Assembly: GCA_964036045.1 (NCBI GenBank)
Contig: OZ038379.1
Coordinates: forward strand, 68,416,719 to 68,480,718
Origin: Eutreptiella sp. 'Long Island Sound 2002'
Lineage: Eukaryota > Euglenozoa > Euglenophyceae > Eutreptiales > Eutreptiaceae
Direction: 5' to 3'
Length of the DNA: 64,000 nt
Part shown: piece after piece, positions 26,016 to 48,345 of the stretch
Position numbering within the stretch: position 1 is the stretch's first letter
Layout of the letters: the number at the start of each line of letters is the position of its first letter
The notes under the pieces: model-generated
Database searches by the model: none
What the model saw: only the letters and a program-made list of their open reading frames with translations
What the model was told of the DNA's origin: nothing
Made by a program: the position numbers and the translations under genes

Positions 26016-26177
26016 CTCGTGTGGGAGTGTCGCAAGTTGTTCATAAGTTGTTCATAAAGGCGGTTCATAATTCATCCGTTCAGAACTCGGTTCACAGACA
26101 TTTATGACGGCAATTTCGGTTTTATGAACACCGAATCATGAACACAATATGAAGGCAAACAGCAACAGACGGCATAC
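26016..26177 (-). other. Intron 2 of copy C carrying a TTATGAAC array
   Basis: Minus-strand donor GTATGC (after codon GTG, phase 0) and acceptor CACGAG/CAG give a 162-nt intron. It contains GTGTTCATGATTCGG, GTGTTCATAAAACC, ATTATGAACCGC, TTTATGAACAAC and TTATGAACAAC. Its splice phase equals that of intron 2 of element B at the matching gene position. Confidence 0.6.
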
Positions 26178-26559
26178 CACTAGGGCGCGGGGCACCTTTT
26201 GATTATCCTCCGGGAGCTTGCTCGATTCGGCGGTGTCCATGTATGGGCAAAGAGTAATAACGATGAGCGACTGAGAGGTCGCTTGGGTGGAGGGTAGTTG
26301 GGAACTCTTGCTTAGAACTGCAGCGGCGGTGGACACCGTAGTGTGTGGGGTGTTATAGTGCAACAGTGGTAGGTCAAAGGTTAGAAACCACCATTCCCAA
26401 ACCTACTGGACAACCATTGCTTCGCAGTCCAACGCATTCTTAACCCCACAATTACCCCCAAGAGGAGCGCATTGTGCCCCTTCTTCAAAATGTAATTGGT
26501 GCTCTCCTAACCACCCCCTGACACGGCAACCCATCCCAACCTGTTTGCATCCGCTCTCA

Positions 26560-27230: not shown

Positions 27231-27335
27231 TTTGTGTTCATAAAACCTGTTCACACTTCATAAATCTGCGGTGCGGCGTTTTATGAACCGTATATTCGAT
27301 CTCTGAATGGCTTAATCAAGAACAACATATGAACG
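27205..27335 (-). other. Spacer 1 of copy C with GTTCATAA array
   Basis: Holds TTTATGAACACAG, ATGGTGAACATGC, TTTTATGAACACAA, TTTATGAAGTG, TTTTATGAACCG and CATATGAACGCG. A CTGCAG acceptor-like site precedes the GGDxPW-encoding exon. Spacers occur at this same place in copies A (29281-29400) and B (40046-40114). Confidence 0.5.
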
Positions 27336-28160: not shown

Positions 28161-28600
28161 TTCCGAAGTTTGCAAATAATGGTATTCGACCTTTTTTTGC
28201 TTTATGAGTGTGTCTAGGGCCTACTTTTGTCATTAGGGGCCTGCTAGCATGTTGTGTGGTATGGGTCCTACTCTACCCTAGTCGTACACATTTCAAACTT
28301 TTGTCGTCCATCTTCAACGGAACTGTCATTTCTTGTTCGGCGGAATGATTCTATGTCTTTCCAGCGGTGGGGCATGACCTTTCCCGCTACGCTTGTGCCT
28401 TGCTACTATGTCTAGTGCTCCATTTTAATGTTGTTCCCTGGTACAACTACGTGGGTCCAAGGATACCTTCCACTCCGGCTATGCATTTTGAACTTTGGTC
28501 ATTCATGTTCATTTTTCTCAGATTACCATGCCTACGAGACAAACCTGGGTTATCGCAATAACCGCCCACTGTGTCCGTTTGGCGGGTGCGGTGAGCCTTC
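28161..28600. other. No supported gene
   Basis: AT-richer intergenic stretch between the divergently oriented copies C and A. No repeat or frame of note. Confidence 0.35.
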
Positions 28601-30180
28601 AACACAATGATTGTGCTGGGAAGCTTCCGGTTCAATGGGCCGCCCCCACCCCCCAAACTCGGCGTAAGGTTGCTGTGGCCGTGTGTTTGGCCCAACCTGG
28701 TTGCGTTCGGGAGGTGCAGCAGAAGGCAATCACTCAGTATGCCTCCGAGGTCCTTCCCCTAGATGAGTTTTGCGGACTCATCTTAAACCTACCTGCGCCC
28801 AAATGAGCATGGTGTACCCTTTCCAAGGTGCACACGCTCCGCGTGTTGAAACAAACGGCGGCTACTGGGTTGCCTTTTGCTCACCCGCTGTGCCCCAAGA
28901 GGGCTTTCTCGTAGCGGTGACATGAGCTGTTGGCCCCGCTTTAGTTGGAAACCCCAATGAACAAATCCGACCCGAAGCCCACAGGTGTCCACTAGCCGTG
29001 GGTGTCGTGGTTTCGCTATATTGTGAGCCAGCCCCCGTTGTGCCGCATGATTGAATGGTCTTTCCCCTTAACATTCATTGTCACGGGGGATGGCTAGAGG
29101 CCAATGCCTCGACAAACGCTCACGGAAGACGGGCGCTCAAGCAGTGCAAGTGCTAAATATGAAAAACAACCGGGTGAAGGGCTGTTATTGGTGGCATAAG
29201 TCAAATCAAACCAGGATCCTTGGGCAAGCGGTGGGTTGCTGTCTTAAGGCTGCCTGTGAAGTTGTACGGGAAACTTGTAGTTAGCTCTTGTCCACATCAA
29301 TGCGGCGACGTTCCAGCAACTTGTTCTGGCGACGTCCCAGTGTTGTGGCGGTCATTTTTTTTGAACGCCCATGGGAACAATTTGGTTCCAACGATTTGCT
29401 TTTGTTTTTTTGAGGCAATCCACCTCATCATGGACACCAAACAAGTGCTCTGCGATGCCCGTAATCACCCGGCGGGTGTTTGGCTGGGTGGCGACTCCCC
29501 TTGGGTGCGTCGCATAATTGGAATTTCACCGGCCCCGCAAGGTGGGTCCCGAAACAATAAGGCCATCTGGGACTCTATGCCCGCGTTTGGCTGGGCAAAG
29601 ATGTGGTGCGGACGACCGAGAGGGATCATCAGCAACGAACATCCTTCTTGTTAGACACCGTCCCTTAAAGCAGCCGGGTGCTCCGCGGACCCGGTCGTGG
29701 TCAACGTGCACTACCGCGTGGTCATGTGCATTTTGCACTGTTGCATGGCCCTCGGGCAGCTACAAATGGCCAACATCGAACAGTTGGCCAATGACCACCT
29801 TGCCCCCGACGATCAGGGAACTTGCACAGCCATCCAAGCCACGTTACATGAAGACGGCATTGGATGCCGTCTACGGAAGGGTGCCTCCCCGAACGATGAG
29901 GAGACCTCTCGTGTCTTTGCTGCATGGCCGTAGCTAGGCTTGTTGTTGGCCGTGGCGCCGGATGACTCGCTATACAAGGCGTTTGTTGATATGGCACGTT
30001 TGCTACGAGACTTGTACCACACTTATCGGATGGGTCCACGCGCCCAATGCCTGGGTGTAGCGGTTGCCTTCGATAAGCATTGTGCCGAGTGTGCATCCAC
30101 GGGGTGGCACCTACAACTGGTCCTCATGCAACCCATCCCCCAACTTTCTTCCAAAACTTTGGGGGGGGGGGGGTCAGCCG
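28600..30180 (+). pseudogene. DDE-lineage transposase, copy A
   Basis: Recognisable blocks are: LTFIVTGDG (about 29066-29092, followed by TAG), the candidate first Asp; GKRWVAVLRLPVKLYGKLV (about 29221-29278); a spacer with GTTCCAGC/GTTCTGGC; VWLGGDSPWVRRIIG, with Asp at 29493-29495; SLKAAGC; VMCILHCCMALG, with CILH at 29726-29737; ASPNDEETSRVFAAWP; and LLRDLYHTYRMGP. The ExxNRFLK block seen in copies B and E is missing. The sequence runs into a G run at about 30161-30175, where B also has a Gly-rich G run. Stops and frame changes make this a pseudogene. Its intact GGD is informative because B has GGG there. Confidence 0.6.
29281..29415 (+). other. Spacer 1 of copy A with GTTCYRGC motifs
   Basis: Between two conserved coding blocks lies GCGACGTTCCAGCAACTTGT, then TCTGGCGACGTCCCAG and a T-rich tail, resembling a degraded intron. 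The position equals spacer 1 in B and C. Confidence 0.45.
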
Positions 30181-31160: not shown

Positions 31161-31551
31161 CGTTCAGGTGGATGTGGGTTTTGGGGGGACCCCGAGGGGA
31201 ACTCTGTGGTTCCCATGAACCCATCAGGGCGATCCCCCTTCATGTTGTCCTTGTGGTCGTTGTTGGTGTTGCAGGTGGTGTGGGTATTGACGGGCTAGAG
31301 CGTTACAGGGGCGGCCAGCGATGCCAGTTGGGCTACGGCGACACAAGCCGGTAAAGCAAGTTGAGCGGGGGGTTGAATTGGGGTTGAGGTGTGGCTGTCG
31401 AAGCCTGCACAGAGCTACTCGGTGGCCGTGAGGGGCAGGGGGTGAGGTCCACGGGTGGCAGGGCCAAATCTTGCCGCAAGCATCCCCCTCCGACACCCCC
31501 TCCTATGAACATATGAAGGAGGGTGGTGTCGGCTAGTTTTCAAAATATTGT

Positions 31552-31660
31552 TCCGGCGAAATTCTAGTAGCTTGTTCCGGCAACGTTCCGGCGGTGTTGC
31601 AGTGTCCGCTGAACCACTGCCGGAATGTGACCGGAGCAAGTCACCGGAACGTCCCTATAA
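31552..31660. repeat. GTTCCGGC/GCCGGAAC palindromic spacer
   Basis: Contains TTGTTCCGGCGAAATTCTAG, CTTGTTCCGGCAACGTTCCG, GCCGGAATGTGACCGG and CACCGGAACGTCC, so the motif faces itself across about 100 bases. It is the same class of array as spacers 1-4 of B, with a CCGG centre in place of CTAG. Confidence 0.6.
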
Positions 31661-32295: not shown

Positions 32296-32469
32296 CGAGA
32301 TGCACAGTCATTCACCGGCATTCACACACATTCACACACAACAAACTTCATTTTCGTGTCGCCTTCGACAGGGCAGTCACCTTGCCCCGCATATCGCCGT
32401 CGATGGGCACGGCCATGATGCGGAGCACAGGACAAAAGTGAGCTAATAAAGGGGGGTGCATAATGGGGT

Positions 32470-32775
32470 ACGGACTCTAGGGAAGCCCTGGGAACACAAG
32501 GAACATGGTGAACAACATTGTTTTAGTGTAGAAAAGTCCATTGCAGCATTTGCCCCACGGTCTCGGCATGTGAGTCCACAAAGGCCTCGGGGCGTCCACA
32601 GGCACTTTGCCCGTTTTTTGCTGGCCCCCGCCCCAGGCAGTATGCACGTCAAAAGCCTGCTTTAGGAACCTGTTCAGGATCTCAACAATGTTGTTGGGGA
32701 ATATTGCCATGCCGAAAGGCCATGTGTCCTCCGACAAGCGGTCAGCATCCTCCTCCAAAAAAAGGAGCTAGTGGG
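32470..32775 (-). pseudogene. DDE-lineage transposase C-terminal piece, copy E
   Basis: The minus translation LLFLEEDADRLSEDTWPFGM continues AIFPNNIVEILNRFLKQAF and then HTAWGGG. It matches element B residue by residue at LLSLEHDVDTILQN, PFGLAMF, ExxNRFLK and the terminal Gly run. The candidate catalytic Glu codon is CTC at 32681-32683 read in reverse. Only this block remains. It begins beside a C/G-rich run at about 32820-32850 and its continuation past the Gly run is not recognisable. Confidence 0.6.
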
Positions 32776-33044
32776 ATGCAGACACGGGGGGGTGGCCAGG
32801 CCGGGTCCTTGTATGCGAACCCCCCCAGCCCCCCCCCCCCACCCCCCCGGAGTTTTGAAAGATAGTGCTGCCGGGGCGGCCACCAACAAGTGTTCCTAGA
32901 TAAATCTCTCCGGCGCCAATTTTTTTCATACAATGTGTGTATACTCAAAATACTCAAAATTTTGTAGACAATCCATACTTTTTTAAAGCAACAAGAAAAC
33001 TTTTGACCTGAATGAGGGCTATAGGCGCGCTGCACGCCTAAACA

Positions 33045-34225
33045 GCAACCCTAGCCCTAACCCTAACCCTCTCTCTAACCCTAATCAAGACCGAATGATG
33101 GGACCGAACTGGTGGGGGAGGGAACATTAGCTATGACTGGTGAGGGACATCAAGAATGATTCACACATTGATGGCTCCTGTGAAATCAGCTACCCCATCA
33201 CCACGAGGCCCACTTTCAAGGCTTTTGGGACTTATGGGGGGCCAAAATGCCCCAAAATGGGGTCAAAATGGGCTCCTTTCACCCGTTTGTGCACCCCAAA
33301 TGGTCTAGGATGAGGTTTGGGAAAATGTGTTTTTGACCCATTTTTGACTCATTTTTGGTCCGAAAAAAGCCCATTTTCAAGGCATTTTGGGATTTTCAGA
33401 GGACCAAAATCGGCCAAGCTCAAAAGGGTCCAAAAACACTTGTTTTGGTGTCGCACATGGTCTAGGATCATTTTTTAGAAAAGTCATCTTTTTGCCCCTG
33501 CTGGACCCTGTGGACCCATTTGGGCACCCACCTGTTTGGGCTTGAGCTTGCGGCTTGCCGCAGCCCAGTGGGCCTAGGTATTGGGGTCTAGGCGTCCGTG
33601 TGGGCAATTTTGAGGGGTGGAAACCACAAAAAGTGGGGGGTTGCGGGTGGGGTAGGTGCCCTCGGAGTCTCATTTTGAGCCATGTAGCCAAAGATATGGC
33701 CTATTCTTGGTTTGTGCCTGTCGGCATTTGGAGCCTCTGGGGAACTTTTTGGGCCGTTGCCGGGACATATCATGGAGTTAGTGGGCCGCAAACGGCTCGA
33801 TGACCAGGGGAAGTCAAGCCGCACGTGAAGTGCAGCCACCGTTTCCCTTCGTTTGGCCGTTTGGAATATGTTCCGGGGCTGCTTTGCCCCCAAAATGGCT
33901 GTTTTTGGCCCTAAACTACAGTTTTTGAAACTGAGGTCCGCCACTTGCAAATCCCGTTTGCGGCCGCCAGCGTTGAGTTTCTCGCTCCAACTTTCTGTGA
34001 TTGTACTTCACACCCACAGGTATCATCCACCAAAATTTCACTTGGATCTCAAACACCACAAATCAGTTCTGATTTTTGCCCATTTCGCGCGAGCTGCTGC
34101 TTGCTTGCTGCTTGCTGCTGCTGGTGCTAAACCTGGTAGGTCGACCCTAGACGCTAAAAAGGGTTATAAAACCAAAACTCGTTCCACCAGCTCGGTGACC
34201 CTAACCCTTACCCTAACCCTAACCG
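33045..34225 (-). mobile_element. Telomere-repeat-bounded unit, copy 2 (inverted)
   Basis: Reverse-complement copy of 15709-16882, collinear over about 1.15 kb including the TAGGCGTC, GGTTTCCACCCCTC and TTATAACCCTTTTTAG stretches. It is again bounded at both ends by telomere-like arrays, AACCCTAGCCCTAACCCTAA at 33047 and ACCCTTACCCTAACCCTAAC at 34202. It is not surrounded by the 15237-17150 TIR arms, so the telomere-bounded segment is the common repeat unit. Confidence 0.8.
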
Positions 34226-34985
34226 CAACCGTACAACTAACCCTAACCCCCCCTGCCTCCCTCACTCCTCGCTAGACGCCCCGCTTACCCACGGCCACAC
34301 ACGCCCCGACCCCCGGTAGGAACACCCCCCCCCCCGACCCCCGCGACGGTCGACCGTCCCCTATGCCAATACACGCCATTTTGCCTCCAACTTCTCAACC
34401 GCCCATTGAACCTCCCTTAGTGGGCACTTCCTGCCCAAAAGTTTTCGCTTGAAACGACCCCCCCCGGAACATCCCGAAGCTCCCGACAACGCGCGAACAC
34501 TTCCTCAGATGCTCTGCATGTTTCCCGTCGCCTCCTTGACTAACGGCAACACCACACCCCAATATGCTACCCCCCCCCCCCCCCCCTTCAGTCCCTGTCG
34601 TCCTATGCGAGGGCACCATCAACACTGAGTGGATGGGCAAGACGTTGCGTACAACCATGGCAAACAAAGGTGCAACCTTCCCCTAAACAAATGAGATAGT
34701 GGGTCCTAACTCCCCTCCCCTAGACGCCTGCATCCTGAAATCGCCCCACCCAACCATCTACACTCTTCGGTGGTTGTTGATCCTTATACACAGCAAGGCC
34801 CAAAGCCACTGCTTGTGGCGCCCGGAGGATAGGGATGCACCGGGTGGGACCTTGGTGACGTGCGTGACGGGGTAAGGGAGCTCAACGTCCCTCCCAAATT
34901 ATCAGTACCCCACCCATGCACCGAGTGGGGGGGGGGGGGATTTCTTACCGCCGCGGGGCAGATGGCGGGCAGCTGCCACTGGCAG
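34226..34985. other. C-run-rich stretch without supported gene
   Basis: Contains C homopolymers at about 34327-34338 and 34570-34587 and a G run near 34926-34939. A minus frame (34667-34395) is open but gives Gly-rich sequence over a C run and has no support. Confidence 0.35.
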
Positions 34986-34989: not shown

Positions 34990-36520
34990 TTTTTTGACGT
35001 GGGCCTAACCATCGTCTAACGGGCGTGAAGCCCACGCCCGAAAAGGACGTTGTGGTCTTCCAGCCAAGTGGGTCAAGATCTTGAAGGAGGGGAACTACCC
35101 GGTCGAGGACGATGACAACTCCCACCGCCACGTCCCCGGCCAAACCCAGGTGCCCTCACGTGACGTGCGAGAAGGACACACAGCGCAACCACCTGAACGC
35201 ATTGCAAGATGTCCTTGCGCAGAGAGAGAGGAAGCCGTCCGCACAGCTGCGGCACGCTTGGCTGCCCTAAAGGGAAACTTGGACACGCAAGTGCGGGTAT
35301 ACCCCTTTCCGGCATGCCTTAGGGGGCCAATAGGGCCAGAAAAACCGTGTGGTGTTCTCCCCCACACTCTATTCAGATGATGTTGAAGCAGCTTGTTCCG
35401 GCGGTGTTCCAGTCTGTAGCACTCAAAAACCACCGGCACTTCGCCAGAACGTCGCCCGAAAAGCTTGTTGGAACGACGCCGCAACACATTTTCGTGGTGT
35501 CCTCTTTGTAGATGGAGGACATTTAGCTCAATCGTGACGACCCCCGAGCTGAGCACCTCATCATGCGGTGGCCGGGCTTCGACCACGGGCCCATCTACGC
35601 CCTGGTACAAGAGTTGCAGCAGCATCCTATTGCAGCATTGGAGGTTTTGACAGCACTGCCCGACCATCTAGCCGGCCATAGTAGTGTCCTAGAGACGCAA
35701 ATGGAGCGCTCAGGTAGCATTGACAACCTATCTCCGGCCCCCGCTCACCGCCAGCATTTGGTATCCACCGTCGCGAGTGCCGCCCCCTCGTCCCCTCCAG
35801 CCCTACTCCTAGTGCCAATACTTGCCCCCATGACCAGAACCAACCCCTCCCTTACCTCGAACTTGTCCGCTTGTTTTGCGGACTGGCCCATGCGCCGCAA
35901 GTAGACACCCCAGCCCCCCAAAGAGAAGCCCGCCCTCCCCCCTCTAATACCCCAAGAAGTCCCCGAAGACTAGCCCACAAACTGCCGCCTCGCCGCACCC
36001 AACCCCCAACTCCCCAGCAGCGGACATGCCGAGGGATATCCCCACACCTAAGCTCAAGCCCAAGGCGAAGGCAAGGGGGGTGTAAGTACAAGGCAGGGCA
36101 AAATGTTTATGTCATTTTTTGCGGGAAGGGGATGTGGGGGATCAAGAACGGCAAGGAGGCCCTGGCCGGGGATGGACCCCCCCGAAAAAGGGAAACGTGG
36201 GTGGGGTTCCTAGGGTATGAGGAAGTTTTTGGTGTGCCGAAAGCCCGCGTGTGGTGGACCTGAAGGCAAGCCAAGAAGCACGTGGGAAAGAAGAGGAAGG
36301 AGAAGAAGGCGGGCGAAGACAGGGAGGGTGACAAGGACGCCGAGGACACGGAGGCCGAGGATGGAAACGGGGATGGGGTGGGGATGGGGATGGGGGAGAC
36401 AAAGGGGATGGGCAGGAGGCAGGTGACGGTGCCCCGGCGGCTAGCCGGGATGAGGGTAAGGGGGTGGGGGTTGCCGGGGTGTAGAGTGAAGGGGTGGTGG
36501 CTGACGGGGTGGTGGTCGAC
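34990..36520 (+). pseudogene. C-terminal exons of another DDE-lineage copy (GTTCCGG subtype)
   Basis: The first exon (about 35060-35380) encodes a helical segment, read across one frame change as NHLNALQDVLAQRE and EEAVRTAAARLAALKGN, like the coiled segment before intron 2 of element B. A GTTCCGG-bearing intron-like spacer follows. The second exon (35512-35904) reads DDPRAEHLIMRWPGFDHG, then YALVQELQQHPIAALEVL, before Ser/Pro-rich sequence and a Pro-rich frame (35871-36263). That frame ends in a compact segment with YKAGQNVYVIFCGKGMWG and WVGFLGYEEVFGVPKARVWW. Gly/Glu/Lys-rich sequence follows to 36520, as in the last exon of B. The assignment rests on layout and composition, not clear alignment. 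Confidence 0.4.
35384..35511 (+). other. Intron-like spacer with GTTCCGGC array
   Basis: Contains CAGCTTGTTCCGGCGGTGTT, ACCACCGGCACTTCGCCAGA and TTGTTGGAACGACGCCG, and ends with a good acceptor, CCTCTTTGTAG at 35501-35511. The donor is not resolved. Confidence 0.45.
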
Positions 36521-36660
36521 CAGAAAGAATGAGAGGTAAGTCCCGGGGCGCCATGCACACCGGTGACAAGACAGGAGGAGTAGCCAAAGAAGGTACGAAG
36601 TGACTAACCCCATATGCCCTTGCCGGCACCCGAACTTACAATGTATGTTTCACTTACCCT

Positions 36661-37907
36661 TTATCCACACTTTGCTTTTTCTCTCGCCTGTGTGTTCTAG
36701 TGCTTACCCGTAGCTTGATCCGGCGGTGTTTTGGTGGTATTCCGGTAAAAACCGATTTGGAACGCAACTTTTTTTCGCACGACAACATGTAAAACAACAA
36801 ATCTGAAAATTCCAGCAGCACAACCTTCAGCTACCGAACAACAATCTTTCTTAGCATGTATGGGTGTGCTTGGTTCGGGCGGCTTGGATCCCATTGTGTG
36901 ACCCGGCTTCGGATCTCCGTGGGAACCTCCCTTGCATCACACAGTGGAGATCGTACATACAGCAGATATGAAGTCTAAAACAAATGAGATGCGGCGCGTG
37001 GTTGAAACACCGGAGACAACCCTTTGCTTAGCAACGGGGGGGGGGGTAAGGGTGGGGGGCAAATGAAAAGGGGACCCACCCACGTTTTGGCTAGAGGTAA
37101 AGCTCTATGCCTAGTCCTATGGGGGGGGGGGGGGTCAACCTCACGAGGTACCTACCCACAAAACTACCAAGACTGCGCAAGGGAATGTACACAAAGAAAA
37201 AATTTCCGGAAACAGGCCAACCTTTCATGCGGCTTAGTCCCATCAGGGGCGAGTGCCTCCACACCCTAGGTGACCGCAGCCCCATGGGCCGCGCTGCGGA
37301 AAGGCCAAGGGGTGCACCAACTGTTCTTGCCACTCCATCATCTCCTACAAGCGCACCCCTGCCAAGCGTCTGTAGACCACCGACACGGAATGTGAGCGTA
37401 GGAGTGTCGAGGGCCCCCAACAAACTTTCCTTGGGTACCACAACGGTGTGCCAAAAGCTGCGGCATCACGTCAACTTATTTAGCTTTTGCGTGCTGTGCA
37501 TACACAGGTTAGCGCAAAAACATGCCGTCGGCGTGGCCTCATGCCGTCTCCCCATCCCTTCGCCTTAGTGTACAGGGCACGAAAAGAGGACCCGCACCAA
37601 GGGCTCAAGTGTCATCGCAACTATGCCTACCGTGGCCCTCTTCTCAGGCCGCCGATCTTCTTCGGGGTGTCCGCGCTCTCCGTTGCCCCTTCTCCTATGG
37701 AAATGTCGCACTCCATGCCAACTTGGTGAAGTCCACAGCAAAGAGGCCGTGTGAGACTGCGGACCGTCCCAACGTGTAGCTAGCGCCTTCCCTACCTTGG
37801 TGGAATCAGCACCCCGTGGCTGCGCGTGGACTTGCTGAGCGTTGAAAGCTGTGGCGACCCGGTATGCACTGACCTATTGCCTGCGGCCGCTGATCAACGC
37901 TTCCCGT
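36661..37907 (+). repeat. 1.25-kb tandem unit 1 (intact empty-site reference)
   Basis: Runs from TTATCCACACTTTGCTTTTT to the next TTATCCACAC at 37908 (1,247 bp). Inside are TTCTAGTGCTTACCCGTAGC, a CCGG-palindrome tract, the GGATCTCCATTGTGTG and GGATCTCCGTGGGAACC pair, a long G run and a conserved region of about 600 bp with open but frame-shifting ORFs. It supplies the uninterrupted target sequences for both insertions found in units 2 and 3. Confidence 0.85.
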
Positions 37908-39059
37908 TTATCCACACTTTGCTTTTTGTCTTGCCTGCATGTTCTAGTGCTTACCCGTAACTTGTTCCGGTGGTCTTTCGGTGGTGTTCCGGTAAAAACT
38001 GCTTTTGAACGCATCAATTTTTTCGCACGACGACGTGGAAAACGACGAACCTGAAAATTCCAGCAGCGCACCCTTCGGCTAGCAAACAACATACTTTCCC
38101 CGCATGCATGGGCGTGCTTGGTTGGGGCGGCTTGGATCTCCATTGTGTGAACCGGCTTTGGATCTCCATGGGAACCGGCTTTGCATCACACAGTGGAGAT
38201 GGTACATACCACAGAGATATGAAGTCTCACACAAATGGGATGCGACGCCTGGTGGAAACATTGGGGACAGCCGTTTGCTTGGCAACCGGGGGGTGAGGGT
38301 TGGGGGGCAAATGAGAAGGGGACCCACCCACGCTTTGGCTAGAGGCAAAGCTTTGAGCCCAAGACTATGGGCGGGGGGGGGGGGGGTCGACCTCACGAGG
38401 TACCGACCAAAAAAAAACGACCACGACGGCATAAGGGAATGTACACAAAGAAAAATTTGCGGAAAGCGGGCAATCTTTCATGCGCCTCAGTCCCATCAGC
38501 GGCGAGTACCTCCACACCCTATGTAACCGCGCCCCCTTCGGCCGCGCTGCGGTAAGGCCAGGGGGTGCACCCACCGTTGTTGTGCCCTCAACACTCCTCC
38601 GCTCACATTGCGTGTCGGTGGTCTACAAACTGTGGGCAGGGATGCTCTTGTCGGAGATGATGGAGTACCCAACAGAGTTTCCTTGGGTACGGCAATGGTG
38701 TTCCAAAAGCTGCGAAATGCGGTTAACTTATTCAGGTTTTGCGCGCTGTGCACACACGGGTTGGCACAAAAACATGCCATCGGCGTGGCCTCATGCCGTC
38801 TCCCCATGCCTTCGCCTTAGTGTACATGGCACGAAAGGAGGCCCCGTGCCAAGGGCTCAAGTGTCATCGCAACTAGACCTACCGTGGCCCTCTTCCGGGG
38901 CCGCCGATCTTCTTCGGGGCGTCCACGCACTCCGTGGCCCCTCCTCCTATGTAAACGTGGCACTCAACGCCAACTTGGTGAATTCCACTGGAAAGAAGCC
39001 GTTTGAGACTGCGGACCTTCCTAACGTGTTGCTGGCGCCTTCCCTACCTTGGTGCAACC
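37908..39059 (+). repeat. 1.25-kb tandem unit 2, left part
   Basis: Collinear with unit 1 (about 85 percent by eye) up to CCTTGGTGCAACC, where element B begins. The remaining roughly 100 bp of the unit lie beyond B at 44488-44590, giving 1,255 bp when joined. Confidence 0.85.
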
Positions 39060-39062
39060 CTT

Positions 39063-39102
39063 GGTACACGCTAGAAGACCCAATCTCGTTCTAGCCTAGA
39101 AC
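39063..39102. repeat. Left terminal inverted repeat of element B
   Basis: Forty bases matching 44445-44484 in reverse complement with one mismatch at position 15. It contains CGTTCTAGCCTAGAAC, and the motif goes on as further TTCTAGCC copies to about 39150. Confidence 0.85.
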
Positions 39103-39287
39103 ACTCTAGCCTAGATGTTCTAGCCTAGATTAGATCAATACTAGAACGATATAATGTTTACCTAGGTGTGCCAATTTCTTCATTGTTGCGCCGTGCATGC
39201 TTCCTATTGTCCGTAGTGCATTGTTCCATGGTTCCTTCTTTCCCCCTTAGATATTACACATTTCTTTGCAATGAAACGCCCCGCATG

Positions 39288-40045
39288 TCCCCCCTTGCTC
39301 CCTCCTCAACCGGGAAGGATACTTCCCTCTTGTCTAAGGCACTACGGGAGTTGAGTGGGGCATCTACCCTCAAGGATGAGCGGGTGGGCCATTACTTGGC
39401 CTGGGCGGTATCATGCACCCTAGCACGGCGGCATTTCAACAACGCCGTCCAATATGTGAACTCCGCCACTTCTACCCATACCACGGGTGAGGCATGCAAG
39501 GCCGCCGTTGAGGCATACACCGCCTCCCTTCTCCCCCCACCGCCATGTGTGAACTAGTGATCAACACGAGGGCCCCCAAGTCCTCGTGGTGGACCCTCTC
39601 GGAGCTCTACACGCTTCGTAAGTTGGAGTATCACTGCACCGTCCCTAGTGGCCCCTACTCCCGTCCAATTTGTACCGTGCGGGCTTTCCAAGCCCGTTGG
39701 AAGGAGTTGGTCGCCCCGGTGCAATTGGATGACCCCGTTGCCACGGTGTTGCCCAAGGCCACCGGGATCTCATGGCCCTTCGCCTCATGGGTCACGTACA
39801 TTCTCTCCCGGTCGGGCTTGGTGCGGTCAATCAACCGCAACTTCCTGTTGACGTTCATCGTCCGGGGAGATGCCTAGCCCGTGACCGGGGGCAATTGGAC
39901 CCAACTTACCATCTCCTTGGCCAACTCCGACCGCTTGGCCCGCTACCCGGCGGGGCTTTGGGTGTTGAGCATGGCCAATTGCGATCACAAGGCCATGGAC
40001 ACCCTTGGGACGTTGTGGAAGAGCAATTGGGAGGTGCCTTTCGCT
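39288..40045 (+). pseudogene. Element B transposase, N-terminal exons with first Asp block
   Basis: The frame from 39168 gives a helical segment (ERVGHYLAWAVSCTLARRHF and onward) to LLPPPP, where a shift at a C-run (about 39530-39545) moves coding to the frame 39545-40045. That frame holds KSSWWTLSELYTLRKLEYH, a WPFASWVTYILSRSG helix, and LLTFIVRGDA with Asp at 39869-39871. It continues PVTGGNWTQLTISLA, LWVLSMANCDHKAMDTLGTL and NWE. A TAG directly follows GDA; copy A has TAG at the same point. Copy D keeps GDPWADGSW and FVWVIGVAG in the matching place. The Asp in an open beta-strand context is a good candidate for the first catalytic residue of a DDE fold. Confidence 0.6.
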
Positions 40046-40114
40046 CGTTCTAGTTTTGATCTAGTTGGCCTGGAACGCCGCTCGCTAGACGCTAGATTGG
40101 ACTACACTAGAACG
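40046..40114 (+). other. Spacer 1 of element B, GTTCTAG array
   Basis: Contains CGTTCTAGTTTTGATCTAGT, GGAACGCCGCTCGCTAGACG and CACTAGAACG. It lies between the first-Asp exon and the GGD exon. A GAG/GTGCCT donor-like site precedes it, but no acceptor restores frame in my reading, so splice sites are unresolved. Confidence 0.5.
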
Positions 40115-40130
40115 AACTTAACCATCCCCC

Positions 40131-41237
40131 ATGTCTCGTGTTGGGGTGATTCAAGATATCATCGACACGGGGCTGGTCCAATGGGGGGCCTCCAAGGAGG
40201 AGGCAAAGGTGATCCTCGGGGGGGGTCAACCGTGGACGCGAAGGGTGATCGGGGTTGCCACATGCCCCCAAGTGGGCTCCATGTTCAATGAGGGGATATG
40301 GAATGCCCAAACGAAGACTTGGGAGGGTAGTGCTATCCCGCGGACCATTGAGGGTGATGAGGCCAACTACACGGCCTTCCTCCTTGGGAAGCCTTCCTTG
40401 CAAGCCGCCGGCTGCAGTACGCCGCGCATTTTGTAATTGCCACGTGCCTGGGTGGTCTTGTGCATTTTGCACTTGACAATGGCCATGGGACGCTTGTTGG
40501 GGGAGTTTGTCAACCGGGAGGCTAGGTCGGTCACCCCTGCGCTCCGTCAAGACCTGCAAGTTCTCCTGTCGGAGGGGCGTGCAGGTTGGAGTGTTTATGG
40601 GTCAGCTTCCCCGGACGGGGAAGAGACTGCCATTTTTTTTGACGCATGGCCGCATATTGCTAAGTTCCTCGGCAATAGGCCGAGCTCGGCCAAGTACAAG
40701 GCCATCACGAACATGCTGGACCTGCTGCAGGCCCTCTATGGTACATATGACGGCCCTAACCCATTGAATCGTGCTGCCGTGGCCAGCGATTTCCGGCGCC
40801 ACTGTACTGTCGGAATAGCATCATGGTATCTATTGAGCCTTGAGCATGATGTAGATACCATCTTGCAAAACATTAAGCCATTTGGGCTAGCTATGTTCTC
40901 GGGTGACATTTCGGAAAGCATCAACCGCTTTCTGAAACATGGTCGCAACGAGCACAGCAACCGGGGGGGGGGGGGGGCTGTCGGGTGGAGGGGGTGGACA
41001 GGGTGTCGGGTCGTCAGTGGTCGGCCATCCACAGGGAGGCCAACAATGCATGACATGGTTCTGCATACTTTGACGTGTCGTGGGTTGTGCATGGGGGGCC
41101 GCGGTCACAAGTGCCAAGCTCGGGTAGGGATGCCATGGAGGTAAGGAGGGGCGAGGGCCACATGCAGGCTTCCCTGAACCAGACTATGGAGCAACAAAAT
41201 GGCATTGAAAGAGTTGATGGACGAGGTGCTACGCCAG
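40131..41237 (+). pseudogene. Element B transposase, C-terminal exon with GGD, CILH and Glu blocks
   Basis: One frame from 40131 reads VILGGGQPWTRRVIGV (second Asp replaced: GGT at 40224-40226 where copy A has GAC and copy C an Asp), PQVGSMFNEGIW, PSLQAAGC and then a TAA at 40434. After it come VVLCILHLTMAMGRLLGEFV (CILH at 40461-40472), SPDGEETAIFFDAWPHIAKF, LLQALYGTYDGPNPLNRAA, YLLSLEHDVDTILQN, PFGLAMF, and SESINRFLKHG with Glu at 40914-40916. A G run (about 40964-40976) follows. A short helix ALKELMDEVLRQ closes the exon at 41237 in the same frame, after stops that suggest another unrecognised splice or decay between 41000 and 41195. Confidence 0.65.
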
Positions 41238-41386
41238 GTATATTGTCTTGCTGTGCGTTCTAGCGTCGATCTAAGGAATAGTTCTGGTCTTGATCTAGGC
41301 AGCACGATCGGTCGCTGCACTGTCGCTAGAACGCCACTAGAACGGTTGCCTAGAACGCCGCCAGAACGCTCCTGTGTCTGCTACAG
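41238..41386 (+). other. Intron 2 of element B carrying the GTTCTAGCG array
   Basis: CAG/GTATATTG donor at 41238 and TGCTACAG acceptor ending at 41386 define a 149-nt phase-0 intron. Splicing joins ALKELMDEVLRQ to NAATQALIAQVLEAHKQ as one continuous helix. Inside are GCGTTCTAGCGTCGATCTAA, GTCTTGATCTAGGC, TCGCTAGAACGCCACTAGAA and CCTAGAACGCCGCCAGAACG. Confidence 0.75.
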
Positions 41387-42733
41387 AATGCGGCGACCCA
41401 GGCGCTGATTGCGCAGGTGCTGGAGGCGCACAAGCAGGCACAGCAGGCGCCGGCCGAGGAGGCCGAGCCAAAGGCCCAGCAGGCCCCGAAGGGCAAGCCA
41501 CCCCCCCTCGCCAAGCCCAAGGCCAAGCCTGAGCCCCAACCCCAAGCCCCACATCCACCATCGCCACCCCCTCGCCCCGTTGGTCGCCACGAAGTTGGCG
41601 GCGACGGTCCCCGCGTAGCACCCGGAAGTGGAGGAGGTGCGGGGGGGAGCTCAAAGGGCTCTCGGCTTCCCTCGCAGCCTCCAAGGGGGCCAAGGCCAGG
41701 GCTGAGGCCAAGGTCTCCGAATGGGAGACCAAATTGGCCGCCCTCTGGGCGGGGGGGGGCTGCAGATAGGATCCGCATGGCGGAGGACACCCTCCGCAAG
41801 GCGAAAGGGACGGTTGCGTAGAAGGAGGAGGCGATCGAGGCGCTCGATCGCGGGGTGCGGTGGATGGAGAGAGAGTTGGCGGTGGTGGTGGAGAGGGTGA
41901 AGGAGGAGGAGGTGGACGAGGCGGTGGAGGTGGACGTGGAGGCGGAGGAGATGGAGGAGGGGATCGTGAAGGAGGAGGTAGAGGCGAAGGTGGTGGTGGA
42001 GACACCGGCGAGGGGGGGGGGGGGGGGGCAGTGGCTCAAGGGGATGATGGGGTCGAGGAATGCGGGGGCCCTCCAGGACCTGCCATGGGACCCGCCTGTC
42101 CTGGCTGGCCCCCACCCCCCAAACCTGGACACCCCCCTCCTCGTCGCCCCAGAGAGTCCAGGTTGGACTCTCCGGTTTTGTTGCAACGGGTGCACCATCG
42201 GCTGTTGGGGGCGGGGCGGTGTGTATGGGTGGACGAGGGGGGGGTTGTCCACCTGGACAGGCCCCTGCGCCTAGGGGTGATCAACGGCTGGTGGGGGTGG
42301 CAACGTGAGTTGCCGGGGCCGAGGAAGGGATGGGGGGAGGTCCCCCCCCCCCCCCCGAAATGGGGCCGAAGATGTTCGAGTTGGCGCAAACCAACATCTT
42401 CACCCCCGAGAGGAAAAAGGGGGGGGGCCACCCACGCCAACTGCTAGCGGGGGCTGGGCTTGGGGGGGGGGAGAGGGTTGAGTATGCGGGGAAGGCCTGG
42501 AGCTGGACGCCAACCTGGTCGGCGCTCATGGACTTCGGGGGTTTCAACCCCGAGGCGGCGAACCGGGGGGCGTACGCCGGGGCGGTGCACGGCATCGCCT
42601 CCCGGCCCAACTCCAAGCCCAAGCCCGCCGCAACCCCCGCTGGGGCCCCCACGCAGCCGCACCCCCCCAACCCCCGGGACGCCTTCGCCAAGGCCCTAGA
42701 GCCATCTTTCCCGCCCTGGACCGCCAAGGCACG
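41387..42733 (+). pseudogene. Element B: coiled helix, Lys/Pro-rich exon and unknown domain
   Basis: Starts NAATQALIAQVLEAHKQAQQ, then a Pro/Lys/Ala stretch (GKPPPLAKPKAKPEPQPQ) and Gly/Arg-rich sequence. A Glu/Val-rich helical segment follows in one frame (about 41822-42000), then a segment reading GRCVWVDEGGVVHLDRPLRL and GVINGWWGWQREL, and finally GKAWSWTPTWSALMDFGGFN ending FPPWTAKAR. G and C runs make the frame jump, so the true exon structure is uncertain. Composition suggests a nucleic-acid-binding accessory region, an inference from charge only. Confidence 0.4.
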
Positions 42734-42888
42734 GTATGTTGATTGCGTTGTAGCGTTGATCTAGCGAACCGTTCTAGTCTTGATCCAGCCACCGCCGTGC
42801 CGCCGCCGCTAGAACGTCCCTAGAACGCCGCAAAAACAGTTGCCTAGAACGCCGCTAGAACGCATCTGCATCATGTTTCTGTCTTCAG
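42734..42888 (+). other. Intron 3 of element B carrying the GTTCTAGCG array
   Basis: Donor GTATGTTG at 42734 and acceptor TGTCTTCAG ending at 42888 give a 155-nt phase-2 intron. Joining exons reads FPPWTAKAR then LSACRRVEPTPVGVRVEWRD with no stop. It contains GTAGCGTTGATCTAGCGAAC, CGTTCTAGTCTTGATCC and CCTAGAACGCCGCTAGAACG. It closely resembles intron 2 in sequence, so the two spacers are relatives. Confidence 0.75.
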
Positions 42889-44110
42889 CCTGTCAGCGTG
42901 TAGACGTGTGGAGCCGACCCCCGTTGGGGTGCGCGTGGAGTGGCGCGATGGCGGAGGGCGAACGCGCCTCGTGGGGGTCACCAAGTTGGGCGAGATGATG
43001 GGGACGGACCCCAATCTGGCTTCTCGGTGTTGGAGGCTTTGGGTAGATGGGGATCGGGGAGGAGTGCAGGGGCCATGGACCCGCAGCGCAAGGGTTGGGT
43101 GAGGTTGCAGGACGGGACGGGGGAGACCAGCAGCAGCAGCAGCATCAGCAGCAGCAGTAGCAGCACCACCACCACCACCGGGAAGAAGACCCCCCCCCCC
43201 CAGTCTCCGAAACCCTCGCCCAAGGCCCCCAAGAAAAAACCCCGCCGCTTCGAGAGTAGCGAAGAAGAGCCCCCCCCCCCCCCCCCCTAAGCCCAGCAGA
43301 GCAAGCCCAAGGCCAAGGCCAAGCCCCAAGCCAAGGCCAAGGGCAACGCCCCCCCCCCCCCAACCCCAAGCCCCTCCCTTGCAAGATAGGGGTCGGGACC
43401 CCTATGGGAATGTGCCGGGTGTGGGGGACACCCGGTATGTCCCTTGGAGGGAGGGGGGCAATGGGGGGGACCGTCAGCCAAGTGACGGTGTTGGGGGATT
43501 GGGATGAGGAGTTGGACCCGGGGGAGTGGTTGGTGGTGTCGCAGGGGTCCAATGGGGAGAGGGAGGGGGGGAAGAAGGGGAAGAAGGGGAAGGAGAGAAG
43601 GCGGGAGAAAGAGGGGGGCACCTTCCGGGTGCCGGGAGAGCTTCTCTTCCGCACCAGGGAGGAGGCGGAGGCCCACCTCCGGGAGGCCTTGGGGGCGGGG
43701 ACGAGGGGGACGAAGGGGATGACGGGGATGACGAAGGGGATGAGGGTGGTGACAAGGGGGGTGAGGTGGGGGGTGACAAGGGGGGGGATAAGGACGGGGA
43801 CACGGGGGGTGAGAAGGGGGGTGCCGGGAGCAAGGATGAGCCCCGGCAACCCCGAAGGAGGGGTAACCTGCATGTCGCGACTCGCGAATGGGGGCCTGGG
43901 GGGGGGCAGGGAGGCTAATGGGGCTAACCGGGCGAATCGGGCTAACCCACCACCAAGTGACCCGGCGCCGGCCCGCCAAGTGACCTTCCAAGTGACCTGT
44001 GGGGTGCGGTGGGGGGCTAACCGGGCTAACCCGGGGGTGGGGGGGGGGGGAACCCGGCGCTCCGTGAGTGGGGTCCAGCATCGGGACCTTATGATTGGCC
44101 ACGGCTGGCC
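42889..44110 (+). pseudogene. Element B last exon: VEPTPVGVRV segment and Ser/Lys/Glu/Gly-rich tail
   Basis: After intron 3 the frame reads RRVEPTPVGVRVEWRDGG, RTRLVGVTKLGEMMGTDPNL and CWRLWVDGDRGG, a compact segment that could be a small beta-rich domain. Poly-Ser/Thr, KKTPPPQSPKPSPKAPKKKP, an acidic SSEEE, and then Lys- and Gly/Asp-rich repeats (GGDKGGDKDGDTGGEKGG) follow, across frame jumps at C and G runs. I do not recognise a family. The tail chemistry suggests nuclear or chromatin contact, without proof. Confidence 0.35.
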
Positions 44111-44159
44111 ATGGTAGCCAGGGCGGCTTCTCTTTGAGGAGTGGCGGAGCATTCATATA

Positions 44160-44245
44160 TATTGTTCTAGCAGGGTTCTAGCGAACCGTTCTAGCGGCGT
44201 TCTAGCAACGCTCGCTAGAACGTCGCTAGAACGCCGCTAGAACGA
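44160..44245 (+). other. Spacer 4 / 3' subterminal GTTCTAGCG array of element B
   Basis: TTGTTCTAGCAGGGTTCTAG, GCGAACCGTTCTAGCGGCGT and TCTAGCAACGCTCGCTAGAA, then repeated CGCTAGAACG. The left half reads GTTCTAGC and the right half GCTAGAAC, so it can fold into one long stem. A duplicated GTATGGGCCCCCGAGTATGG-type direct repeat lies just downstream (44302-44371). Confidence 0.7.
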
Positions 44246-44444
44246 AAAAATTTTGGACTCCAAAATCAGGTGAAAATAGTGAAATTGTGAAAAAAAAAAA
44301 AGGTATGGGCCCCCGAGTATGGATAGGGGGGTCCGAAAAAAGTATGGGCCCCGAGTATGGATAGGGGGGTCCAGGTTAGACACCTCACCCCCCCCCTGCG
44401 GGGGGGGTATCCCCCTCTCTTTTTCGTTCTGGCCGCTCTAGCCG

Positions 44445-44484
44445 GTTCTAGGCTAGAACGAGATTGGGTATTCTAGCGTGTACC
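44445..44484. repeat. Right terminal inverted repeat of element B
   Basis: GTTCTAGGCTAGAACGAGAT at 44445, ending TTCTAGCGTGTACC at 44484. Partner of 39063-39102. Confidence 0.85.
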
Positions 44485-44487
44485 GGG

Positions 44488-44590
44488 GGAACCGGCAGCC
44501 TGTGGCTGCGCTTGGACTTGCTGAGCGTTGAAAGCTGTGGCGATCCAGTATGCTCTGGCCTATTGCTGGCCGCCGATCAAAGCTTCCCGT
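44488..44590 (+). repeat. 1.25-kb tandem unit 2, right remnant
   Basis: GGAACCGGCAGCCTGTGGCT and onward matches unit 1 at about 37803-37907 and completes the unit begun at 37908. Confidence 0.8.
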
Positions 44591-44629
44591 TTATCCACAC
44601 TTTGCTTTTTGTCTCGCCTACGTGTTCTA

Positions 44630-45234
44630 AACCCCCCCCCACTTATTACCCCCCCCCCGGGGGTAGTAGCAGTGCGGATTGGTTGAGGGTGCCGGGGGGT
44701 GGGTTATAAGTGGGGGGGGGGGGGTAGAAGTCCCTTGGTGGCATGGATGCAACCACATTTGCATCTTCAGACGTCATTCATCTTTTTGTAATGGAAATTG
44801 ATTTGCACCGATCTGTGGGAGACCCTAGTGGTGCTGCAGCTCCTGATGATTGCTCAACTTGGGCATGTAAGAACCCAAATCTTAAGCTCACGTCTGATGG
44901 TAGCCACATTGATTTGACAGAACTGCCTGGTTATCAATATGACGCCAATGATGCATTGATTTGGTTCCGGCCAAAGCATGCTCTTGAGTGTGTGAATGCC
45001 AATGAGCAGCGCCCTGCAAAGAAATAGGCACAAGTCTCATTGATGCAGCTCTGGAAGAAGTAACCGATTCCTGATTATTGGCAATCCATCCGCTGGCACT
45101 TCTCGTTCTTGCTTGTGTGCTGACAAAGGGGGGTTATAAGTCCCTGGGTGGCACGGATCTCCTAGGGGGGGGGTGTTATTAGTGGGGGGGTATCATAAGT
45201 GGGGGGGGGGATAAGTGTGGGGGGGGGTGGGGGT
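44630..45234. mobile_element. 605-bp TIR element with TA duplication and internal ORF
   Basis: The flanks are TTC-TA at 44628-44629 and TA-GTGCTTACCC at 45235-45236. Units 1 and 2 have the uninterrupted site TTCTAGTGCTTACCC with a single TA. The left end reads AACCCCCCCCCACTTATTAC, and the reverse complement of the right end reads ACCCCCACCCCCCCCCACAC then TTATC. The ends match the MITE at 2660-2888 in their AACCCCC start. Extra GGGGGTTATAAGT-type repeats are found near both ends. Confidence 0.85.
44743..45027 (+). CDS. Small ORF inside the TA element
   Basis: The 94-codon frame starts with ATG and ends TAG; it reads FASSDVIHLFVMEIDLHRSV, a Cys-containing stretch, then GYQYDANDALIWFRPKHALE. 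The base composition is balanced, unlike the G/C-run ends, and the product looks like genuine soluble protein. It does not resemble a Tc1/mariner transposase, so it may be a captured gene piece. The function is unknown. Confidence 0.35.
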   Translation: MDATTFASSDVIHLFVMEIDLHRSVGDPSGAAAPDDCSTWACKNPNLKLTSDGSHIDLTELPGYQYDANDALIWFRPKHALECVNANEQRPAKK

Positions 45235-46392
45235 TAGTGCTTACCCGTAACTTGTTCCGGCGGTCTTTCGGTGGTGTTCCGGGTAAAACTTTTTGTGAAC
45301 GCAACTATTTTTTCACACGACAACATGGAAAACAACAAAATCTGAAAATTCTAGCAGCGCACCCTTCGGCTAGCGAACAACATACTTTCCTAGCATGTAT
45401 GGGCGTGCTTGGTTAGGGCGGCTTGGATCTCCATTGTGTGAACGGGCTTTGGATCTCCATGGGAACCGGCCTTGCATCACACAGTGGAGATCGTACATGC
45501 AACAAAGATATGAAATCTCACACCAATGAGATGCGACGCGTGGTTGAAAAATTGGAGACAACCCTTTGCTTAGGAAAGGGGGGGGGGTAAGGGTGGAGGG
45601 GCAAATGATCAGGGGGCCCACCCATGTTTTGGCTAGTGACAAAGCTCTCAGCCTACTCCTATGGGGGGGGAGATTCAACCTCACGAGGTACCTACCCACA
45701 AAACCACCAAGACTTCATACGGGAATGTACACAAAGAAAAGTTTCCGGAAACCGGGCAACCTTTCATGCGGCTGAGTCCCATCAGCGGCGAGTACCTCCA
45801 AACACTATGTAACTGCAGCCCCATCGTCCGCGCTGCGGGAAGGCCAAGGGGTGCACCCACCGTTCTTACCACTCCACCATCTCCTACAAGCGCACCCCTG
45901 CCCGCATAGGGGTGTTGAGGGCCCCCAACAGACGTTCCTTACGTACCACAACGGTGTTCCAAAAGCTGCGGAATCCGGTCAACTTATTTAGGTTTTGCGC
46001 GCTGTGCATACACGGGTTAGCAAAAAACATGCCGTCGGCGTGGCCTCATGCCGTCTCCCCATGCCTTCGCCTTAGTGTACACGGCACGAAAGGAGGACCC
46101 GTGCCAAGGGCTCAAGTGTCATCGCAACTAGACCTACCGTGGCCCTCTTGCGGGGCCTCCGATCTTCTTCGGGCGTCCACGCTCTCCGCAGCCGCTTCTC
46201 CTATGTAAACGTCGCACTCCACGCCAACTTGGTCAATCCCAGACCAAGGAGGCCGTTTGAGACTGTGGACCATACCAACGTGTAGCTGGCGCCTTCCCTA
46301 CCTTGGTGGAAGCGGCACCCCGGAGCGTTCAAACATGTGGCGATCCGGTATGCAATGGCCTATTGCCTGAAGCTGCCCATCAACGCTTCCCT

Positions 46393-46729: not shown

Positions 46730-47640
46730 CTACCCGCGGGTGTCCCAAGTGGGCATACCTTCAGCAGTTGGCGAGCCCTTGCCAAGGCGCACAGCAATGG
46801 TCGCACAATGGTGCGCAATGAAAGGCGCAAAGACCACCGCTGGCTCTTGTGCCCTTCCAAACCTCTGGTGCACATGCGGAGCAACCACCGCCATGAACGA
46901 TGAGGATGCTGCCGATGCCGGCATTGCCGCCCAAATTTGGCCCAGGGCAACCGTATCCTGGCCCCTTGTGCCGGCAACGCCGATGACCCACACAAAGGCG
47001 GGTGTTCTCGCCTTTACCTTATGGTTCGATAGACCAATCGGTAGGTGTGACCAACTCCCATCAGCCCACGGGTCCCCGACACCCGGCACCACAAAGCCGG
47101 GGGGACGTGCCGAGTAAATGGACTGGCCGGCGCTGGCCTGAATTGCACGTGTTGTGGCCACGAGCGTAGGGGCCAACAGCCACCGGACGCCGAGGGGTCG
47201 GCACATTCCATTAGGCGGGGGGGGGGGGGGGGGCAACGCAGGCGGGGCGCTCAATGACCTCCATTTTGCGTCAAAATGGGGCCATATTGGGATGGGTACT
47301 GGGAAGGGTAGCCTAGTGCCAGCGGTGTAGGTGTCGCCCTAGCAGGCGACGTACTTAGACAAAACAAGGAAGGCGGACCAGGTTACAACCAACTCCAAAA
47401 GGAGCCCTACGAAATGGGGTGCGGGAAAGAGGGCCTCCGCATACATACGGATGGCATGCACCTTGCTTTTGTGGAACGCCCGGAGGGGAGTGTGCTAGAT
47501 GGCCTCCGAGAAACAGGCCCGGATGAGGGGGGTCGATGACGTCCATTGGACGATCACATTGGACTACTTGCTGTCCCGAAGAATGTTGGCACCACTAAGC
47601 CCAAAAAGTGTCCTCCTCGGCTCCGTGAAGACAGAGTAAG
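46730..47640 (-). pseudogene. DDE-lineage transposase N-terminal half, copy D
   Basis: Minus translation: HAIRMYAEALFPAPH (about 47445-47490) matches AVEAYTASLLPPPP of element B. After a G/C run (47215-47235) the frame 47254-46730 gives FVVPGVGDPWADGSWSHLPI, then GLSNHKVKARTPAFVWVIGV, which lines up with FIVRGDA-stop-PVTGGNW, TISLANSDRLARYPA and LWVLSMA of B. The Asp is retained and no stop follows it here. The GGD, CILH and Glu blocks are missing. It lies beside a TTATGAAC array (47675-47745), the motif also used by copy C. Confidence 0.6.
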
Positions 47641-47674
47641 GGTAAGACATAACGAACACTTTGGACAAAGCAGA

Positions 47675-47745
47675 GTTCATAAAAGCTATTCATAGTTCAT
47701 GGTTCATTTATGAATCGTTCATGGATGAAAAATAAATTATTAACA
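47675..47745. repeat. GTTCATAA/TTATGAAC cluster upstream of copy D
   Basis: AGAGTTCATAAAAGC, ATTCATAGTTCATGGTTCAT, TTATGAATCGTTCATGG. Marks the 5' side of copy D (minus strand), parallel to the motif-rich termini of B. Confidence 0.55.
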
Positions 47746-48345
47746 ATGCTGCTATTCACGCAGGTACCAACGGTAGGATTCGAGCTCCTTTTTTGTGTGC
47801 CACATGAAATTTTGATGTGCGGGCAACCCATGTTTTATTAGTCCCTCAAGTGGCCCACAATTTCCTGACTCTAAACCCTAAAGATTGTAATTAGATTCTT
47901 GTGTCCCATATGAATTCTAAATGTTGCACAGATACATTTTTGGATGTTCCCCCATGTGGCATTGTTAGTTCCTAACAGTTACGAAGAGGATGCGAATGTA
48001 AATTCTAGATTCCACATGACGTTTTGATGTGCGGAGGATCCATTTTGTATTGTTTCCCCAAGTGGCATTTATAAACTCCTAAACCCAAACCCATAAAATA
48101 ATGGTTTTTTTTTGTATCCCACATTAAGTTTTCATGTGGTGTGGATGCAGTTTTGGACATTCCCCCATGTGTCATCGTTAACTCTTGGCCCTCATTAATA
48201 GGATTGGAATGTGGCTTTTGTCTCCCTCATGCAGTATTGATCTCCGAGGGAGCAAGCATTGTATATTCCCTTCTGTGCCATTTTTAACTCCTAACCCCAT
48301 AGCAATAGGATTCGAAATTCATTTTGTGGCCTACCTAAGTTTTCA
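47745..48345. repeat. 107-bp satellite, second locus
   Basis: Five to six diverged units with TTCCCCCATGTGGCATTGTT, TGTGTCCCACATG-like and TTTTGATGTGNGG phrases, as in 21440-23350. Confidence 0.75.

Follow-up and report, generated by a model that had tools for sequence, protein, structure and literature searches.

Described systems and the locus

CACTA/EnSpm transposons (maize En/Spm, soybean Tgmt*) have a transposase and a DNA-binding-protein function together with direct and inverted repeats of subterminal motifs; excerpts of PMC2613891 describe these motifs as stem-loop-forming, family-specific, and thought to be bound by an element-encoded protein. The CMCT clade (EnSpm, Mirage, Chapaev, Transib, and RAG1) has C(2)C and H(3-4)H between the second D and the last E, a target duplication of 2–5 bp, and, in most cases, 5'-CA..TG-3' termini (PMC12730594). 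Euglenid nonconventional and intermediate introns contain foldable inverted repeats, and an origin from miniature inverted-repeat transposable elements (MITEs) has been proposed for them, according to portions of PMC4770533 and PMC6221363. Here we describe element B, a DNA transposon in a window of 64,000 nucleotides from Eutreptiella sp. 'Long Island Sound 2002' (contig OZ038379.1, positions 68,416,719–68,480,718 of the forward strand; the window is the whole stretch analyzed, and coordinates are counted from its first letter). Arrays of one short motif, GTTCTAG, occur at its ends, in three predicted introns of its own genes, and behind its last exon, and relatives have arrays of other motifs at corresponding places.

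The CACTA subterminal repeat system is the closest working analogue. Element B likewise has subterminal motif arrays, but its ends are CCCTTGG rather than CAC..GTG, its target duplication is 2 bp rather than 3 bp, and its arrays also lie in introns. With the CMCT clade it shares a predicted RAG1/Transib-type ribonuclease-H-like (RNase-H-like) fold and a duplication within the 2–5 bp range, whereas its termini are CCCTT...AAGGG instead of 5'-CA..TG-3', H(3-4)H is absent, and C(2)H replaces C(2)C. Target duplications of Transib are 5 bp. Element B differs from Transib, RAG1, and ProtoRAG in its 2-bp duplication, CCC ends, and the same departures from H(3-4)H and C(2)C, and has no significant sequence match to Pfam or PDB. 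As in introners, its introns are repeated, related sequences tied to a DNA transposon; unlike introners, they stand at fixed positions in the transposon's own genes, and spread into other genes was not seen in 17 open reading frames (ORFs) and 56 kb of flanking sequence. Unlike euglenid nonconventional introns, those of element B are GT-AG in most copies rather than bounded by non-canonical borders.

Insertion, ends, and genomic copies

Element B is a real DNA transposon insertion at 39058–44489. Its inverted ends begin CCCTTGGTACAC, and the true terminus in genome copies is CCCTTGGTACACGCTAGAA.... An initial annotation, made by a model from the sequence alone, had proposed 40-bp terminal inverted repeats (TIRs) containing the motif that also fills the internal spacers. 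These repeats match at 97.5%, and the element was extended to its present bounds because other copies put the ends 5 bp (CCCTT) farther outward. A unit of ~1.25 kb occurs in three tandem copies (~82–83% alike, 36653–46391), one of which is split by element B; the two without it therefore serve as empty sites for reading the insertion (compared by eye).

A search of the source genome (2,280,300,865 bases, 2,205 contigs) gave 3,735 candidates, so the family is probably large; 30 were scored, and the copies studied are the best-scoring ones rather than a random sample. Among 20 loci examined for ends, 5 had no recognisable end, and the 2-bp target duplication was found in 13 of the 15 with both ends. 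Duplications of 4 bp (AACC) or 9 bp, suggested by the window alone, were ruled out by the other copies. Sixteen copies, L001 (the window copy) to L016, were aligned and are 84–100% identical to element B; L007, L009, and L016 match only part of the length of element B, and L017–L020 were left out as partial. No further copies were found by DNA pattern or protein in separate viral-contig and genome-contig collections, and Rfam and tRNA scans gave nothing useful. The end sequence CCCTTGGTAC was rejected as a weak mark of relatives (13 matches at ≤1 mismatch versus 6.4 expected, two of them exact). A diverged B-like 3' end at 6130–6190 of L017, outside the matched copy, suggests older subfamilies.

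Features of element B are as follows (coordinates, strand, description):

39058–39102, +, 5' TIR of 45 bp, CCCTTGGTACACGCTAGAAGACCCAATCTCGTTCTAGCCTAGAAC, preceded by the target duplication AA
39086–39149, +, 5' terminal and subterminal GTTCTAG array
39272–40033, +, ORF1 (transposase-like) exon 1, decayed, containing the proposed first catalytic D (GDA[Y]P); start placed by comparison with P0045 and other relatives
40034–40145, +, predicted intron 1 (spacer 1) with GTTCTAG array; 16 bp near its 5' end missing relative to other copies and acceptor AG lost
40146–41141, +, ORF1 exon 2, with a predicted RAG1/Transib-like fold; GGDQPW and SESIN contain the proposed second D and the proposed E, respectively; a poly-G frameshift tract makes its true end uncertain
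41202–41237, +, proposed short first exon of ORF2, MALKELMDEVLRQ in the window copy; ATG position approximate
41238–41386, +, predicted intron 2 (spacer 2) with GTTCTAG array
41387–42733, +, ORF2 exon 2 (NAATQALIAQ..., proline- and charge-rich), decayed
42734–42888, +, predicted intron 3 (spacer 3) with GTTCTAG array, 76% identical to intron 2 over 120 bp
42889–44139, +, ORF2 exon 3, low complexity, decayed; end uncertain
44163–44245, +, 3' array (spacer 4) with the strongest hairpin (z −10.7), behind the last exon and not an intron
44445–44489, −, 3' TIR, followed by the target duplication AA

One motif in ends and introns

The window holds 29 GTTCTAG/CTAGAAC sites versus 3.45 expected (the largest count in 100 shuffles was 9), and 24 of the 29 lie inside 39063–44484. 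This rules out chance or low complexity as the origin of the arrays and excludes, for this window, that they are low-complexity sequence independent of the element, an outcome the initial annotation had named as refuting its idea. Over the 16 aligned copies, 382 motifs fall in the ends, introns, and 3' array (5' end 50, intron 1 27, intron 2 75, intron 3 99, 3' array 92, 3' TIR 39) versus one in the exons (exon 2; none in exons 1, 3, and 4). An unsupervised 7-mer scan found the 5' end and spacers 2, 3, and 4 but missed spacer 1, which has only two exact motifs; it also reported arrays of unrelated motifs elsewhere in the window. Direct motif copies are followed by inverted ones, so that the arrays are self-complementary, as is the CTAG core, whereas the whole motif, contrary to the initial annotation, is not.

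Three introns occur at the same places in all 16 copies (most of intron 2 is deleted in L008), and no aligned copy without an intron was seen. The two GT-AG introns first proposed, 41238–41386 and 42734–42888, are among them; spacer 1 is a further predicted intron, and spacer 4 is none. Donor GT and acceptor AG are present in 16/16 and 15/16 copies for intron 1, where the window copy is the sole one without AG, in 14/16 and 13/16 for intron 2, and in 15/16 and 16/16 for intron 3. Intron 1 has the borders GAG^GTACTC...GTTTAG^GTGATTC (^, splice site) and lies in ORF1 between codons for WKSNWE and VIQDII. Splicing of all three is predicted from splice signals, frames, and conservation. Joining the splice sites of the two introns first proposed gives open stretches of 164 and 212 codons locally, which are not the longest among the GT/AG pairs tried; the window copy is decayed by stops and frameshifts, so, contrary to the initial annotation, intron removal restores no open frame throughout. 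Among 105 database proteins found with ORF1, 21 bear the end of exon 1, and in 15 of these the last residue is F, where the first motif of the intron would presumably give TTC^TAG. The intron-2 array stands directly behind the preceding exon in 18/18 ORFs that carry it, one of which is the window's own.

Within the arrays, the rate of change per site and copy is 0.029 for the GTTCTAG core and 0.048 for other non-CpG positions (column permutation, P value 0.007, 154 columns each); this P value is indicative, since the core was defined on the consensus, which slightly favours it, and the copies are related. Among non-core positions, paired (0.0488) and unpaired (0.0471) ones do not differ, and paired cells of the four arrays show 2 compensatory changes, 88 one-sided changes that still pair, and 143 broken pairs. 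For the 3' array, 9 paired and 3 unpaired non-core, non-CpG columns were available for this comparison. Conservation within the arrays follows the motif and not base pairing. The 3' array and intron 2 differ in length between copies by steps of ~10–11 bases, equal to the repeat spacing (by eye).

Other motifs at the same places in relatives

In relatives at ~26–58% protein identity, the corresponding places are occupied by arrays of a different motif (GTTCATAA, GTTCCGG, or GTTTAAA), each of which recurs within one element or lineage. Those in the window are:

26038–26147, −, E1, GTTCATAA array, interpreted as intron 2 (acceptor by eye)
26280–27191, −, E1, decayed ORF1 exon 2, 28–43% identical to database relatives
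27210–27334, −, E1, GTTCATAA array immediately upstream of exon 2, in the position of intron 1 (acceptor by eye)
28576–30119, +, E2, decayed ORF1, 70% identical to P0079 in part of exon 1; pieces at 32391–32812 (−)
31550–31655, +, GTTCCGG array near P0089-like pieces (32391–32812, −), hairpin z −7.5; owner copy unassigned
46931–47773, −, E4, decayed ORF1 exon 1 (26–31%), with a GTTCATAA-type 5' array at ~47674–47730 and a possible end, CCGTTGGTACC

The unsupervised scan recovered the inverted GTTCATA arrays at 26038 and 27210 and the inverted GTTCCGG array at 31550. The two GTTCATA arrays belong to E1 and flank its exon 2 as introns 2 and 1 flank exon 2 of element B. In E4 the ORF1 match covers 46931–47614 (minus strand), and the array precedes exon 1. 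P0079, which is 40% identical to ORF1 of element B, reads through intron 1 at the same position, and its read-through letters would back-translate to GTTCCGG-like repeats. A fifth locus (the end of L006, and L023) is 58–70% identical to P0100 and 56% to exon 1 of element B, and its intron 1 has the same position. In L023, a short exon resembling the first one of ORF2 precedes a GT-AG intron that contains an array; taking this intron out leaves a frame open for 73 codons, whereas the unspliced frame stops inside the intron; a further array region lies near 3150–3330, and another array ~80 bases before the end ...CCAAGGG. Its 7.5 kb contain seven exact GTTTAAA/TTTAAAC sites versus 1.95 expected, all within four array regions.

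When exact sites are tabulated by element (element B, GTTCTAG; E1 and E4, GTTCATA; the array at 31.5 kb, GTTCCGG; L023, GTTTAAA), each row has one motif, with scattered off-diagonal matches at ≤1 mismatch.

Four further places were noted as side observations. An CCCTTGGTACC end-like sequence with a GTTCATAA-type array at 23357–23690 is possibly the 3' end of E1, and an additional GTTCCGG-type inverted array at 35354–35474 is unassigned. GTTCCGG occurs twice in two places of the ~1.25-kb tandem tract (37964, 37986; 45254, 45276), and a cluster of six GTTC/GAAC sites with a GTTCCCC-like motif lies in the flank of a B copy (L014, 7270–7401).

Encoded proteins

Structure modelling suggests a RAG1/Transib-like RNase-H-like transposase fold for ORF1. 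The exon-2 model has a mean predicted local distance difference test (pLDDT) value of 66 and a predicted template modelling (pTM) score of 0.63; pLDDT is below 50 for most of its first 55 residues, which makes the placement of the second D weak. Exon 1 was poorly modelled, and a model of P0079 (pLDDT 43) was too poor and was not used. A Pfam scan of 10 ORF pieces of element B (E 0.1) gave no match, and the ORF1 sequence had no significant match to Pfam or PDB. P0012 has a near-invariant C106-x2-H109, and between D27 and E257 its only H residues are at 74, 102, 109, and 219, with no H(3-4)H pair. If the predicted fold is right, ORF1 would point to an unclassified transposase group.

Introns 2 and 3 are probably part of a second gene, ORF2, which in the window copy would start with MALKELMDEVLRQ joined across the intron to NAATQALIAQ. 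The short first exon has a parallel in L023; a frame of ORF1 also runs to the intron 2 donor.

Proposed role of the arrays

We propose that the GTTCTAG arrays are candidate sites for a sequence-specific DNA-binding protein encoded by element B, CACTA-like in arrangement and also placed in introns; judged from sequence comparison, this proposal is evenly poised between right and wrong. That balance applies jointly to the whole explanation, including the placement of element B in a group of cut-and-paste DNA transposons with CCCTTGG ends, 2-bp duplications, ORF1, and ORF2. The binder could be ORF2, as a TnpA-like helper, or ORF1 itself, and ORF2 is an equal candidate to the transposase. Arrays at both ends would be where transposition complexes form; those in the three introns and behind the last exon would take nothing away from the coding sequence. 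Feedback would be the most likely role of the internal arrays, with abundant protein binding them and cutting transcription or splicing of its own genes; looping of the element or synapsis are alternatives. Should the specificity of the protein shift in a lineage, the arrays would shift along, giving each lineage its own motif at the same places. Of two alternatives offered by the initial annotation, 'transposase-binding arrays hidden in introns' is the better supported, because the motif is common to TIRs and introns, nearly absent from exons, slower to change, and replaced in related lineages; its choice of the transposase itself as the binder stays conjectural.

Several observations weigh against this proposal. 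Whole arrays are no better kept than exons (identity among copies 0.915–0.933 for arrays, 0.869–0.941 for exons; the two TIRs have 0.869 and 0.947), and intron 1 alone lacks the core effect (0.022 versus 0.023 at paired non-core, non-CpG positions). No recognised DNA-binding domain was found in ORF2 (Pfam, E 0.1). The intron-1 region of E2 (29265–29410) is a degraded array in which none of the four motifs has an exact site and the hairpin is not significant (z −0.9). Shuffles of L023 can reach seven GTTTAAA sites (the largest count in 200 was 8). Because the motifs were chosen on arrays of these very elements, independent support comes only from their recurrence in other arrays of an element, and the presence of the motifs in the TIRs of E1, E2, and L023 is assumed. 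Likeness among the arrays could also be maintained by gene conversion, with no binding involved.

The arrays might instead be RNA (or DNA) hairpins selected for pairing, for instance to draw the two splice sites close to each other, as in some euglenid introns, with their likeness to the ends a by-product. All four arrays tested in element B can fold (z −1.6, −2.5, and −3.3 for introns 1–3; −10.7 for the 3' array), as can five of six arrays of relatives (−2.0, −2.6, −7.5, −1.4, and −3.4), and euglenid introns with secondary structure are described in part of PMC4770533. We nevertheless consider selection for pairing unlikely: non-core positions change at equal rates whether paired (0.049) or unpaired (0.047), there are hardly any compensatory changes, pairing does not need the end motif, intron 1 of E2 scores only −0.9, and the 3' array lies outside any intron.

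A comparably low probability attaches to an origin of the introns as introners, short non-autonomous relatives that carried end sequences into the genes of the element itself; the introns would then owe their likeness to ancestry and gene conversion. Introns 2 and 3 share 76% identity over 120 bp and have motifs in common with the TIRs, and DNA transposons are regarded as the source of most introners (PMC9860276, in excerpt). Intron positions, however, are the same in 16/16 copies, and those of introns 1 and 2 are common to divergent lineages with other motifs; any insertion must therefore be old and cannot alone explain the motif. The same fixed positions leave the second alternative of the initial annotation, 'intron-forming MITE-like units mobilised by B', unsupported. 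In limited material, stand-alone GTTCTAG arrays were found in 0/17 non-window read-through ORFs (69–220 residues), where the array always directly follows the preceding exon, and in none of the 56,240 bases flanking 19 other loci, where motif clusters were additional parts of B copies or TIR-like pieces and single sites occurred in L006 and L014. Neutral concerted evolution, in which recombination-prone tandem and inverted repeats are homogenised per element without function, would fit the length steps of the 3' array and intron 2, but is very improbable given positions fixed across lineages, near absence of the motif from exons in 16 copies, and the slower change of its core.

Beyond binding by an element-encoded protein, we suggest more tentatively, and at somewhat less than even chances, that arrays of the end motif are retained in the introns of this transposon group as an internal means of control. 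The motif would be replaced in concert in the ends, introns, and 3' region of long-split lineages while the places stay fixed; the introns would be cis-regulatory docking sites co-evolving with the protein and a ready source of introners. If true, a selfish element uses introns as protein-binding sites tied to its own ends, its relatives form a natural motif-switch series for the evolution of transposase-type DNA recognition, and the family is a concrete case in which transposon ends meet spliceosomal introns, an idea for which introners and euglenid introns have so far been the main argument. A partial literature search found no report of arrays of an end motif in transposon introns, so novelty is provisional; what would be new is that arrays lie in introns and that the motif differs between lineages while the positions stay fixed.

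Other features of the window

Inverted CTAAAAA/TTTTTAG arrays at 5475–5613 and 8455–8597 bound a stretch of ~3.1 kb that is perhaps another array-ended transposon with an unrelated motif. An ORF at 377–1231 matches Exo_endo_phos just under the cut-off (22.8 of 24.5 bits) and is perhaps from a long interspersed nuclear element (LINE). A dispersed repeat has two inverted copies, 90–92% alike, at 15818–16739 and 33192–34109, and interstitial, telomere-like TAACCCT repeats lie at 34160–34244. Two inverted arms of 1.5 kb at 60328–63850 are 97% complementary, each with a 35-bp tandem array.

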